This document shows positions 1,352-4,102 of a DNA stretch of 6,107 bases, in pieces. The translations under genes and the position numbers were made by a program. Below the pieces are notes generated by a model, which was given only the letters and a program-made list of their open reading frames with translations, was not told the DNA's origin and ran no database searches. Source of the DNA: Spirochaetaceae bacterium. GTDB lineage: Bacteria; Spirochaetota; Spirochaetia; Treponematales; Breznakiellaceae. The stretch is from the NCBI GenBank assembly GCA_031275595.1, contig JAISOO010000061.1, forward strand, positions 1-6,107. Reading direction: 5' to 3'. Position 1 is the first letter of the stretch; every line of letters begins with the position of its first letter.

Positions 1352-2044
1352 GTCCGCGGCCTCCGCCTTTTCGAGGGTCAGGTTTTGGCCCGTCACGTTT
1401 TCGGCGGAAACGGTAACGCTCAGGGTGCCGTTTGCATAGCCTTCAAGAGACGCCTCGATGGTGTAGGTCCCGGCGGGTACGCCGCTGATGGTATACGCTC
1501 CGTCCGCCCCGGCGGTAACCGCCGAGCCCAGGGGCGTGCCGTCCTTTTTAATCGAGACTGAAGCGTCTGCGGCGCCGGCCCCGTCGCTGGTGCTGATGAC
1601 GCCGCTTACGGTGTAGGTAACCGTACCGGTCTTAACCAGGGTCAGGTCCTTGCCCGTTACGTTGCCGGCTACGGCAAAGGCGGCAATCGTGCCGGTGTCG
1701 TAGCCCTCAAGGGTCACCCGGATGCCGTAGAGCCCCTCGGCAACGTTGCTGATGGTATAGGCGCCGTTTGCGCCGGCGCTTGCCGGGGAGCCGCTGGCCG
1801 CGCCGTCCGCGGTAAGCTGAACCGACGCGCCTGCGGCGCTAGCCCCGTCGCTGGTACTGATAGTACCGCTTACGGTGTAGGTGTCCGCCGGGGGATCGGT
1901 GGTCCCATTGCCGCAGGAGGCAGCGAGCAGGACGAGCGCCGCCAGGACCGCCCCAAGGGAACGAGAAAAGGCAAGATTTTTTAAGGGATTACGGGGGGGG
2001 GGGGGGGGGGGTAAATGATACCGTATATTTCGGTATATTGTCAA
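773..2044 (-). CDS. Surface lipoprotein with carboxypeptidase-regulatory-like and FN3 repeats; upstream part, ends at an in-frame amber codon
   Basis: The 423-residue frame starts at TTG 2044. Order of parts: a poly-proline stretch (residues 12-17) encoded by the homopolymer; a signal peptide with basic n-region (LKNLAFSRS), core GAVLAALVLL and lipobox LAASC (lipid-bearing Cys44); two carboxypeptidase-regulatory-like repeats (about 55-138 and 143-226, each opening TYTVSG and containing DGAYTIS or NGAYTIS and LEGY); and two FN3 repeats (about 233-319 and 324-414, with GLT, WTDPAD, DLASI, GLTNG, EYTFTVKA). FN3 and regulatory-like domains are typical of surface-exposed proteins; the ligand is unknown. 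TTG 2044 has no SD. GTG 2057, with a good SD, is one base out of frame because of the 19-base tract, so the natural start is uncertain. The frame stops at TAG 773-775, yet the same frame continues downstream with a third FN3 repeat. It is probably a phase-variable gene, now interrupted, or a decaying one. Confidence 0.82.
   Translation of the reverse strand: MTIYRNIRYHLPPPPPPRNPLKNLAFSRSLGAVLAALVLLAASCGNGTTDPPADTYTVSGTISTSDGASAAGASVQLTADGAASGSPASAGANGAYTISNVAEGLYGIRVTLEGYDTGTIAAFAVAGNVTGKDLTLVKTGTVTYTVSGVISTSDGAGAADASVSIKKDGTPLGSAVTAGADGAYTISGVPAGTYTIEASLEGYANGTLSVTVSAENVTGQNLTLEKAEAADTTPPAKVSGLTGSPGNGQVSLSWTDPADTDLASIEITWSSGNGSATVDKGAETYTATGLTNGTEYTFTVKAVDASGNKSEGETTTHTPADTAPPAAVAGLTAVPGKWIVRLTWTDPADADLASIVITWTAGSGGTETVTKSTRADRANSKIITGLTNGIEYTFTVKAKDAAGNLNAGETAVATPSSSLNSDL
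1367..1882 (-). repeat. Two tandem carboxypeptidase-regulatory-like repeats
   Basis: Two copies of about 84 codons (1882-1631 and 1618-1367) encode beta-sandwich units with the shared pattern TYTVSG-x-IST-SDGA, then GAYTIS, LEGY and NVTG-x-(D/N)LTL. They follow directly after the lipidated N-terminus and probably act as a stalk or spacer presenting the FN3 repeats. Confidence 0.75.
1993..2011. repeat. 19-base G tract (poly-C on the coding strand), probable phase-variation tract
   Basis: Nineteen consecutive G residues on the plus strand lie between the likely start codon and the signal-peptide core of the minus-strand lipoprotein gene. Tracts this long are prone to slipped-strand mispairing, and poly-G/C tracts are established phase-variation elements in Treponema (for example tpr and related outer-membrane genes of T. 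pallidum). Reading from GTG 2057, a tract of 18 or 21 joins the lipoprotein frame; 19 gives a 22-residue peptide ending at TAA just past the tract; 20 gives a 25-residue peptide ending at another TAA. The written length may also be a sequencing estimate. Confidence 0.85.
2015..2044 (-). promoter_or_regulatory. Candidate promoter abutting the homopolymer, with a dyad in the spacer
   Basis: On the minus strand there is a perfect -35 TTGACA (2044-2039), an 18-bp spacer and TATCAT (2020-2015, five of six matches to TATAAT). Transcription would begin within the C tract. A 6-bp inverted repeat, ATACCG (2018-2023) and CGGTAT (2031-2036) on the plus strand, overlaps the spacer and -10 and could be an operator. 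A problem is that no ATG, GTG or TTG in the lipoprotein frame lies between the tract and the lipobox, so a transcript from here would have no ordinary start codon. The match may partly be coincidence inside the translated leader. Confidence 0.45.
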
Positions 2045-2054
2045 GGAAAATTTT

Positions 2055-2071
2055 CACAAAGTTTCTCCTTT
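2055..2071 (-). promoter_or_regulatory. SD and GTG start of the phase-variable lipoprotein leader
   Basis: The minus strand reads AAAGGAG (2071-2065), a 7-nt gap, then GTG (2057-2055), an ideal initiation signal. Translation gives VKIFLDNIPKYTVSFT followed by prolines from the C tract. At 19 C it stops at once at TAA. One base fewer, or two more, would continue into the signal peptide and lipobox. This is the best-supported start, which is why I read the present tract length as an OFF state. Confidence 0.65.
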
Positions 2072-2719: not shown

Positions 2720-3109
2720 TTGCGTAAATCCATTGCCGGCATAGCGGCGGAAGGGGGCAGAATTTTTATTGCCCGGCGGCTTCCCGGCGGTGATATGGGG
2801 GGTAAGTGGGAATTCCCCGGAGGCAAGGTAGAGGAAGGGGAATCCGATGAGGAGGCCCTTATCCGGGAATATGACGAAGAATTCGGGGTTCCCATCAGGA
2901 TCGGCGCCCTTTTAGGAACCGCTTCCTTTGAACATCAGGGCTGTGTCTGTATCTTAAACGCGTACCGGATCTATTTTGCAAGCCGTTCCTTTAACCTTAC
3001 GGAACATACCGAATGGCGATGGGTAAGCCTAAAAGAAATCGAAAAAATCGACTTTGTGGAGTCCGATCGTAAACTTATCCCCGCTTTAAATTTAAAACTG
3101 CACCTTTAA
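2720..3109 (+). CDS. mutT: MutT-type Nudix hydrolase (probable 8-oxo-dGTP or (d)NTP pyrophosphatase)
   Basis: The protein is 129 residues, the usual length of MutT-like enzymes, which hydrolyse oxidised or non-canonical nucleoside triphosphates to the monophosphate and pyrophosphate in the cytoplasm and so limit mutation. The Nudix box is complete: G35-x5-E41-x7-R49-E50-Y51-x-E53-E54-x-G56-V57, with Tyr where a Leu or other aliphatic is usual. REYDEE holds the metal-binding glutamates. The preceding KWEFPGGKVEEGE is typical of the MutT/NudG branch, as is the C-terminal WRWVSLKEI and FVESDRKLIPAL pattern. There is no signal peptide. The start is TTG, set by the SD at 2706-2711. The gene lies 12 bp after a small membrane-protein gene, probably as one operon, and its last 18 bp overlap the opposite-strand protease gene. 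Exact substrate (8-oxo-dGTP, or CTP/5-methyl-dCTP as in NudG) cannot be told from sequence. Confidence 0.92.
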   Translation: MRKSIAGIAAEGGRIFIARRLPGGDMGGKWEFPGGKVEEGESDEEALIREYDEEFGVPIRIGALLGTASFEHQGCVCILNAYRIYFASRSFNLTEHTEWRWVSLKEIEKIDFVESDRKLIPALNLKLHL

Positions 3110-4102
3110 GGAGAGCCCCGTATCCAGAGCCGCATACCCGGCGCCGGCGGAGTCGAATTCAGACCTGGCCTCGGCGCCGCTCTGCCAGATCTCTAATGAT
3201 TCTCCCCGGCTTCCCCTGATACGGCGGTACCCGCAATAGAGGGACAATAAAACCCGTTGGTGGGGGGAAAAGACCACTTCCCCCCGGGGTTCAAGCATAA
3301 TCCCCCCGGATACGTAATCATTGTATTGTACCCCCTTTATTAAATGATCATCCCGGGCCTTACAGAAAATAACGGGACCCATTTGGAAAGAGAAACTCAG
3401 GGTAAAAAAATCAAAAAGGGGAATGTCCAGGGAATAACCCAGCAAGGTAAAGATCAGCCATTCCTGGGAATAGGCGATTGCCGGTCCGTAGACCATCGTT
3501 TTTTCGATTGATTCATCCCAGGGCTCATATATACCGGTACCGGTTCTTTCCGCATATTGATAATACCCATCCTGGGCGGTCCATTTAAAACGCATATAGG
3601 AAAGACCGATAAAACTTTTTAAAAAGGGGCCTGTCTTAAAGGGAAGGGGAAGGGATATGCCGGTGGAAAAATCTATTAAGAGGACCCCCTTGGTATAGTT
3701 GTCATGGGAAGAAAAATGGGTAAGATCATTATTATTAACGATCGACATCCAGTCTCGGTCTTCCATGCTGCCGGTTTGGCGGGGAATCCCGAATTTTACC
3801 AGGAGTTCGCCGAAAAATCCGAGTTTTTCCCCGGGATCCCGCCGGGAAAACGACAGGGCGGAACCCACATAAAAGAGAGGCTTCAAATCCCAGAGTAATT
3901 GGCTTAAATATACATCGCTGTTTTCATATTTATATACGATTTCTTCCCCCTGGCCGTATAAAAAACCGGTAGAAGCGCCCACGGAGAAGGTATAGGGGAA
4001 TTGCCGGGGAACCGGGGCTTCCGTTTCCGCCACGAGGGGGGCTGCCGCAAGGAATACATACAATATGCTGACGAAGAACACAAAAAGGGGTATAGTTCTC
4101 AT
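3092..4102 (-). CDS. Omptin-family outer-membrane aspartyl protease
   Basis: From ATG 4102 the protein has 336 residues: a signal peptide of about 25 (MRTIPLFVFFVSILYVFLAA, cut after PLVA before ETE) and a mature part of about 311, close to the roughly 300 of OmpT and Pla. Omptin landmarks appear in order: an EIVY match to the ERVY around OmpT Glu27 (E54 here), SQLLWDL matching SQLDWKF (67-73), EDRDWM matching VDQDWM with the catalytic Asp pair (D115, D117), SSH at 131-133, and DDH matching DEH with the Asp-His dyad (D251, H253). The C-terminus SLKVQF ends in Phe, as expected for BamA-inserted barrels. Omptins cut host or other polypeptides at the cell surface. The OmpT Asp208 position is Ala (A249), so cleavage preference may differ. 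The frame stays open to 4228; ATG 4129 and TTG 4138 are other possible starts. None has a good SD. Confidence 0.78.
   Translation of the reverse strand: MRTIPLFVFFVSILYVFLAAAPLVAETEAPVPRQFPYTFSVGASTGFLYGQGEEIVYKYENSDVYLSQLLWDLKPLFYVGSALSFSRRDPGEKLGFFGELLVKFGIPRQTGSMEDRDWMSIVNNNDLTHFSSHDNYTKGVLLIDFSTGISLPLPFKTGPFLKSFIGLSYMRFKWTAQDGYYQYAERTGTGIYEPWDESIEKTMVYGPAIAYSQEWLIFTLLGYSLDIPLFDFFTLSFSFQMGPVIFCKARDDHLIKGVQYNDYVSGGIMLEPRGEVVFSPHQRVLLSLYCGYRRIRGSRGESLEIWQSGAEARSEFDSAGAGYAALDTGLSLKVQF
4068..4096 (+). promoter_or_regulatory. Candidate promoter for the SH3 lipoprotein/DUF445 operon
   Basis: CTGACG (4068-4073), a 17-bp spacer and TATAGT (4091-4096, five of six matches) point right from within the start of the protease gene. 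Transcription would start near 4103, only about 3 nt before ATG 4106, implying a leaderless or nearly leaderless message. No good SD precedes this ATG, which fits. The -35 is weak. Confidence 0.35.

Follow-up and report, generated by a model that had tools for sequence, protein, structure and literature searches.

A poly-C tract within a conserved leader as a candidate translational phase switch of a treponeme lipoprotein gene

The lipoprotein gene and its poly-C tract

The window (i.e., the whole stretch of DNA analyzed here) is a single metagenome contig of 6,107 bases and the longest contig for the window protein (n = 1); all window coordinates below refer to the minus strand. The body of the lipoprotein that it encodes (776 to 1912) matched CarboxypepD_reg (PF13620; E = 3e-23, two stretches) and fn3 (PF00041; E = 2e-18, two stretches). 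It ends at an in-frame stop (773 to 775), past which the same frame goes on to 206 (206 to 772) with additional fn3 (E = 4e-10 in the ORF at 206 to 760). This stop aside, the frame stays open over approximately 600 codons, and its domains have good scores. The Pfam results contained no Tpr-like family; those found were CarboxypepD_reg, fn3, and other Ig-like or beta-sandwich families.

Downstream lies an ORF (199 to 2) that runs off the contig and has AGGAGG ahead of its ATG codons. On the other side are a small ORF to which no Pfam family was assigned and genes for a NUDIX protein, an omptin-family protein, a short protein carrying a lipobox-like stretch, and a DUF445 protein. The omptin-family protein (PF01278; E = 6e-36; 3092 to 4102) is found here on a Treponema-like contig. 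When the DUF445 neighbor was used as bait among genome contigs, one Treponema locus was recovered (37% identity), together with eight further loci titled Desulfobulbaceae, Desulfocapsa, Desulfocapsaceae, or Deltaproteobacteria. No close relative of the window contig was found among 195 genomes of one treponeme family, in which the best full-length identity of DUF445 was 52 to 53% and only short segments were more similar. Judged from its relatives, the contig presumably has a termite-gut source.

Ahead of the body, a Shine-Dalgarno (SD) sequence (AAAGGAG; 2065 to 2071) is followed, after a 7-nt spacer, by a GTG codon (2055 to 2057), the start of a leader of 15 codons (VKIFLDNIPKYTVSF(T); 2012 to 2057). 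Read directly on the minus strand, VKIFLDNIPKYTVSF is followed by A2012 and then by a tract of 19 C (1993 to 2011), which consists of proline codons and is the proposed slippage site. At 19 C, as assembled on this one metagenome contig, the tract exceeds the length of about 8 from which we took a homopolymer to be hypermutable. It is also the sole C/G run of 9 or longer in the window: all 11 overlapping 9-mers lie inside it, compared with a shuffle mean of 1.56, and 11 occurred in 1 of 200 shuffles. Past the tract come the signal peptide RNPLKNLAFSRSLGAVLAALVLLAAS and the lipobox cysteine (codon 1915 to 1913), which together occupy 1913 to 1993 and have no start codon of their own. An n-region, a hydrophobic core, and a lipobox with its Cys (...LGAVLAALVLLAASC) are all present, as in a lipoprotein.

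The three frames past the tract were translated. At 19 C, the leader frame reads ...SFTPPPPPP and meets a stop immediately 3' of the tract; the next frame reads V-I-P and then a stop; and the third is the lipoprotein frame, RNPLKNLAFSRSLGAVLAALVLLAASC. Tract length thus sets the frame that is read past the repeat. The lipobox frame contains no ATG, GTG, or TTG between the tract and the Cys, and a survey of leader tracts likewise found no start codon before the hydrophobic core at this locus (W). The repeat therefore sits between a start codon and the coding body, with no later start, as in a translational phase-variable gene. A TTG (2042 to 2044), from which the lipobox Cys would be residue 44, is joined to the lipobox at 19 C by a frame that stays open across the tract, but this TTG has no SD sequence and was judged coincidental. 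Direct reading and translation thus bear out the first-pass annotation, which had placed an SD sequence at 2071 to 2065 and a start at GTG 2057, had the leader run into 19 C, assigned a stop right after the tract to the 19-C frame, a stop three codons on to the second frame and the lipoprotein to the third, and reported no start codon from the tract to Cys44.

Leader homologues in treponeme genomes

Two loci served with W as the starting set of leaders. L083 was found with a strict promoter-plus-tract pattern and aligns with W from the SD sequence to the tract (MNSFLDKVRSHTVSFT, C17), and L154 was taken from the tract list for three genomes (loci for 30 of 31). Among the upstream regions of 128 distinct tracts, these two were the most W-like (scores of 24 for L083 and 9 for L154), followed by L084 (8), and the maximum of 2,560 shuffles was 6. 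The likeness of L083 is partly built in, given its selection by TTGACA/TATNAT, yet it is also among the six tracts listed unselected for its genome.

A model of these three leaders (R1), which used their sequence only and contained no lipobox, was run on the 195 genomes. Beyond the two training loci it gave seven matches at E < 1e-4 per genome, and a lipoprotein follows in five of the seven; because the lipobox was absent from the model, this constitutes independent support. Three matches are in frame with the lipobox, namely L234 (C7, G141; MKTVLDKLMGNKVSLTP), L235 (C5, G141; MKITLDKLMGNTVPGLP), and L209 (no C run, G094; MKLFLEKPMKHKVSRAV). The lipoprotein lies in another frame in L207 (C9; MQKALDKVRGNTVPPP) and in L206 (C12), where it has its own ATG near the hydrophobic core. 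L210 has a leader and a C21 tract, with no adjoining lipobox seen, and L208 is promoter-like and has no leader. Both training leaders (MNSFLDKVRSHTVSFTP in L083 and MKITLDRLIGNTVSLPP in L154) are out of frame with the lipobox, and in L154 an in-frame stop separates the tract from it. Homologues with runs of C9 to C21 are thus out of frame or have no adjoining lipobox. The N-terminus of L235 is that of a 723-aa database protein of Treponema primitia (P0121; 100% across 60 residues), and this termite-gut species (G141) carries at least three leader copies (L154, L234, and L235).

Nine leaders, including that of W, were aligned. Each of the nine shows an SD-like stretch in roughly the same position (AAGGAG in seven, AAGGGG in L210, and CGGAGG in L206) and a start codon (GTG in W, ATG in eight) equidistant from codons 5 and 6; these two codons are L-D in seven leaders, L-E in L209, and P-D in L206, and codons 11 to 13 read [YHN]-[TK]-V throughout. 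The leader pattern is M-x3-L-[DE]-x4-[YHN]-[TK]-V. This likeness is biased, since the leaders were retrieved by similarity to W, partly with a model containing the start block. Single-base codon differences among the nine numbered 53 synonymous and 137 nonsynonymous, and differences by codon position numbered 159, 145, and 204 (i.e., a mild third-position excess); by themselves, these codon changes would be no proof that the leader is coding. We took the leader to be primarily protein-coding because the SD sequence, start codon, and peptide pattern are kept while L207, L235, L234, and L209 lack the -10-like hexamer or have it in altered form, and to be a translated N-terminal extension of the lipoprotein signal peptide because homologues are in frame with the lipobox. 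As these alignments read, the tract is an expanded proline stretch inside a putatively translated leader. Rfam gave no match at gathering scores.

The homologous leaders that are in frame with lipoboxes without a long tract argue for GTG 2057 as the start and for a genuine N-terminal extension around the tract, both of which had been proposed earlier. The conservation check suggested at that stage also came out in favor of the leader, clearly for L234, L235, and L209 and more weakly for L250. The last of these came from a search with a second model (R2), in which it was a weak match (E = 5.3e-4 per genome; 195 genomes). The R2 search contributed little beyond R1: reading of 15 R2 loci gave 2 that were leader-like (L250 and, at a contig edge, L219) and 4 nitroreductase-like starts judged by eye (L243, L244, L245, and L258), the rest being promoters, ordinary starts, or unclear (L249). 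Both searches scored at most the best 25 to 27 candidates per genome, and weak chance matches were many (R1: 164 of the 195 genomes at E <= 0.5). A DNA search with the leader region returned mostly short chance or promoter matches; its sole match in G141 is not L154, and that in G096 had an E value of 0.57. The contig with L219 (G073:C174, end) stops where the leader (PLDKTREHTVSL) would reach the tract, which suggests that tracts break assemblies.

In the window protein's own family, a C/G run of at least 8 is absent upstream at 23 of 30 homologous loci, and an ordinary ATG stands ahead of the signal peptide at about 20 of the 30 (by eye). Three fn3 relatives have an extension preceding the signal peptide, and none has the full leader pattern: L250 (G113; MKESLDRTETYMPLTP, in frame, C run of at most 6; 38% identity to the fn3 part of the window protein), L218 (G003; MERSVEKKMGALVSFAPP, C9, in frame; R1 E = 0.0024), and L017 (G050; MKATLHGNT..., C8AC10, out of frame). 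Among the 120 protein relatives listed, a simple rule found a lipobox-like Cys within the first 45 residues in 69; 17 of these have 14 or fewer residues ahead of the Cys, and in 16 of those 17 the residues include no K or R (including P0002, P0004 to P0006, and P0010). The predicted starts of such short-n-region relatives look too late, which fits start codons beyond the reach of gene callers.

Tracts, leaders, and the bodies behind them

Tract length was compared among copies with similar flanks. Unequal tracts were present within one genome in L097 and L176 (C12 versus C14; flanks 91% identical), L105 and L190 (C15 versus C14; 86%), and L131 and L137 (C20 versus C17; 82%), and between two genomes in L186 and L195 (C14 versus C16; 82%). 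Equal tracts were present in L179 and L180 (C14; 84%), L176 and L182 (C14; 73%), and L194 and L099 (C15; 73%). At these other loci of the class, tracts thus often seem to outpace their surroundings in change.

Poly-C of 12 or longer occurs in 177 of the 195 family genomes, and the pattern AGGAG-N4-9-ATG-N12-42-C10 occurs in 70, compared with 12 of 195, by our own count, for the reversed control. At least 60 distinct leader tracts (W included) are among the matches listed, 51 of which have at least 240 nt past the tract. In 11 of these 51, which were selected by SD sequence and tract, the leader shares the frame of the longest reading frame past the tract, a proportion not above the one-third expected by chance. 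An export signal without its own start follows the leader tract in, for example, L098, L105, L111, L177, L189, and L195; as assembled, the leaders of L177 and L183 are in frame with an export signal, and so are those of L010 and L085, which were found via other routes. SD-led open leaders were not enriched in unselected tracts (1 of 24, shuffles 0.48; 1 of 26, shuffles 0.64, or 2 of 27 if L083 is counted with its own genome), and the general claim that poly-C tracts follow SD-led leaders was rejected for such tracts on the same 1 of 24 and 1 of 26. Seven further tracts from other loci, a nonrandom set, had an SD-led leader in 3 cases (shuffles 0.10). From these counts, the SD-led leader-tract class is real, yet a minority among all tracts. 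The first-pass annotation had called a tract inside an N-terminal extension unusual, which is too strong, as the order of leader, poly-C, and signal peptide recurs across the family.

Two other kinds of run were seen. Very long C/G runs of 61 (L134), 45 (L136), and 40 (L149) lie on single multi-megabase contigs, and one of 84 (L070) lies at a contig end. A G19 at L069:1501-1519 is placed directly past the lipobox region of a lipoprotein (MKTQRIVTLLGMTALAVLMLLACPTSTDDDTT).

The bodies behind similar leaders differ. In Pfam, L154 encodes a BspA-LRR lipoprotein, L250 fn3 and BspA-LRR, L234 a Flg_new repeat, and L235 Ig-like domains, and no Pfam family was found for the L209 or L083 bodies. The window protein has no significant similarity to that of L083 and shares only a short fn3-like stretch with that of L154. 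This distribution suggests that the leader module moves or is copied from lipoprotein to lipoprotein. We propose tentatively, with slightly more doubt than belief, that a dispersed module (SD sequence, start, and M-x3-L-[DE]-x4-[YHN]-[TK]-V) extends, in this treponeme family, the signal peptides of unrelated surface lipoproteins (CarboxypepD_reg/fn3, BspA-LRR, Flg_new, and Ig-like) and that poly-C expands in its proline codons, by which an export module would become an on/off switch that spreads switchability.

A DNA element like GATAGGTTTACTAGGATATA lies directly 3' of the tracts in L127, L143, L146, L147, L153, L154, L216, and L044, in several genomes, and is read in varying frames (IGLLGYN or DRFTRxY). 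It is possibly part of a copied cassette.

Phase control, alternative readings, and known systems

We consider it probable, as far as sequence comparison can tell, that the lipoprotein gene is under translational phase control via slipped-strand mispairing in the poly-C tract of a conserved leader. Translation would begin at GTG 2057 behind the SD sequence, and the leader would form an extended n-region of the signal peptide. The C tract would be translated into polyproline. For one length class of the three, reading would go on through the signal peptide and lipobox, and the product would then be exported and lipid-anchored, with its CarboxypepD_reg/fn3 modules displayed on the cell surface. 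In the remaining two classes, including 19 C, translation would end within three codons past the tract. We infer slippage at W, as well as expression, surface location, and function of the protein, from these features. GTG 2057 is favored as the start because it is the only one of the two candidate starts with an SD sequence, and the lipobox frame has no post-tract start. Several results weigh against phase control: the lack of enrichment of SD-led leaders in unselected tracts, the 11 of 51 in-frame leaders, the equal tracts of some related pairs, the loci of the protein family that have no upstream C/G run or have an ordinary ATG, the promoter-like sequence over the leader, the in-frame stops here and in L154, and the codon differences among the aligned leaders. 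The earlier proposal of a phase-variable lipoprotein gains from this start, from the leader, and from tract lengths that differ among some paralogues with near-identical flanks; its further statement that the gene is here OFF depends on the homopolymer as assembled.

The leader DNA also resembles a promoter. A TTGACA-N18-TATCAT sequence (2015 to 2044) overlaps the leader, ends 3 nt ahead of the C tract, and was the best site in the window by consensus scan (11 of 12); neither this site nor the in-frame stop at 775 to 773 figured in the first-pass annotation. A weak upstream candidate, TTTGCA-18-TATTAT with TG before the -10 (2144 to 2173; 9 of 12, consensus scan only), would make the leader part of the transcript. 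Elsewhere in the family, genes are preceded by sequences like AAAATTTT(T)C(C)TTGACA-N17/18-TAxxxT, a form that the leader DNA of W fits as well; the window may hold a promoter inside the leader. TTGACA is present in seven of the nine aligned leaders; L207 and L235 lack the -10-like hexamer, and those of L234 and L209 are without its final T. An operator-like inverted repeat (ATACCG-N7-CGGTAT; 2018 to 2036) stands between the -35-like and -10-like hexamers of W, overlaps them in part, and is not evident in L154. At L157:1340-1600, a gene like those for sugar permeases has upstream of it a promoter-like unit in duplicate, in which TTGACA-N17-TATTCT is followed by the operator look-alike GGGAAAACGGTTTCC.

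If TTGACA-N18-TATCAT were the promoter and transcription began in the C tract, tract length would tune transcription and not the reading frame. Besides the match itself and its AT-rich upstream stretch, an 88% identity over 40 nt (2078 to 2039) to a tract-free stretch in L156 (E = 1.9e-6 for one genome), look-alike promoters ahead of genes in L157, L160, L161, L211, and L213 (by eye), the retention of TTGACA, and the poly-G promoter tracts of Treponema pallidum, which act on transcription according to passages of PMC7864442, are all consistent with this explanation. A transcript from such a promoter would, however, contain no start codon for the lipobox frame, and promoters at tracts are rare (strict pattern in 2 of 195 genomes; looser pattern, among unselected tracts, at 0 of 24, shuffles 0.50, and at 3 of 26, shuffles 0.40). 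The peptide pattern, moreover, is kept in the four leaders in which the -10-like hexamer is absent or altered (L207, L209, L234, and L235), which also weakens the idea that the conserved leader is a mere promoter artifact. We regard tuning of transcription as unlikely.

Decay of the gene into a pseudogene, which would make both tract and frame irrelevant, seems distinctly unlikely. The long, otherwise open frame with its well-scoring domains speaks against it; even if it ended at 773, the product would count about 380 residues from the Cys and remain a lipoprotein, and the one stop may have arisen in assembly or in a single clone. The gene may nevertheless be degraded in any phase because of the in-frame stop at 775 to 773, and the same-frame continuation past it, the off-frame state at 19 C, the existence of longer homologues (e.g., P0002; 591 aa), and the stop between tract and lipobox in L154 all accord with decay. 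Translation from TTG 2044, which is in frame at 19 C and would leave the gene ON here, had been named in the first-pass annotation as one case that would speak against a switch. We find it scarcely credible: its frame is open, but it has no SD sequence, and the start conserved across the alignment of nine leaders corresponds to GTG 2057.

Were translational phase control of the window's lipoprotein confirmed, contingency-locus surface variation would extend to a group of treponemes with T. primitia among its members, which apparently lies outside the pathogens usually studied, and one would have to ask what favors variation in such treponemes. A conserved lipoprotein leader would be defined as a slippage site, and the T. 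primitia copies (L154, L234, and L235) would let a named species serve for testing the model. Such starts seem to escape gene callers, and these lipoproteins may be widely misannotated. Among the matches listed from the open-access literature, no paper dealt with poly-C leaders or with phase variation in treponemes of the termite gut.

Extended signal peptide regions with a conserved n-region extension are known from type V secretion proteins. The leader described here is likewise a conserved extension of the n-region, but it is found on lipoproteins, is not known to share their sequence, and contains a candidate slippage site in some copies. Nearest among the published cases that we saw are the in-ORF tracts of Helicobacter pylori and T. 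pallidum and the poly-G promoters of T. pallidum. Like H. pylori pldA and fliP, in which an in-ORF homopolymer sets the frame and thereby determines whether the full protein is made (passages of PMC11768039), and like T. pallidum TP0127, an in-ORF homopolymer case given as unpublished data in the relevant part of PMC3373638, W has a homopolymer within the coding sequence that would decide by frame. Unlike in these genes, as those passages present them, the tract of W lies in a conserved leader ahead of a lipoprotein signal peptide, and leaders of this kind occur on unrelated lipoproteins with or without a tract. The poly-G promoters of T. pallidum (tprE/G/J, tp0126, and tprL), as covered in the same passages of PMC7864442, share with W the genus Treponema and a G/C homopolymer 5' of surface-protein genes, which is variable there; at W, in contrast, we read the tract as translated, and the protein family is, according to Pfam, not Tpr-like.
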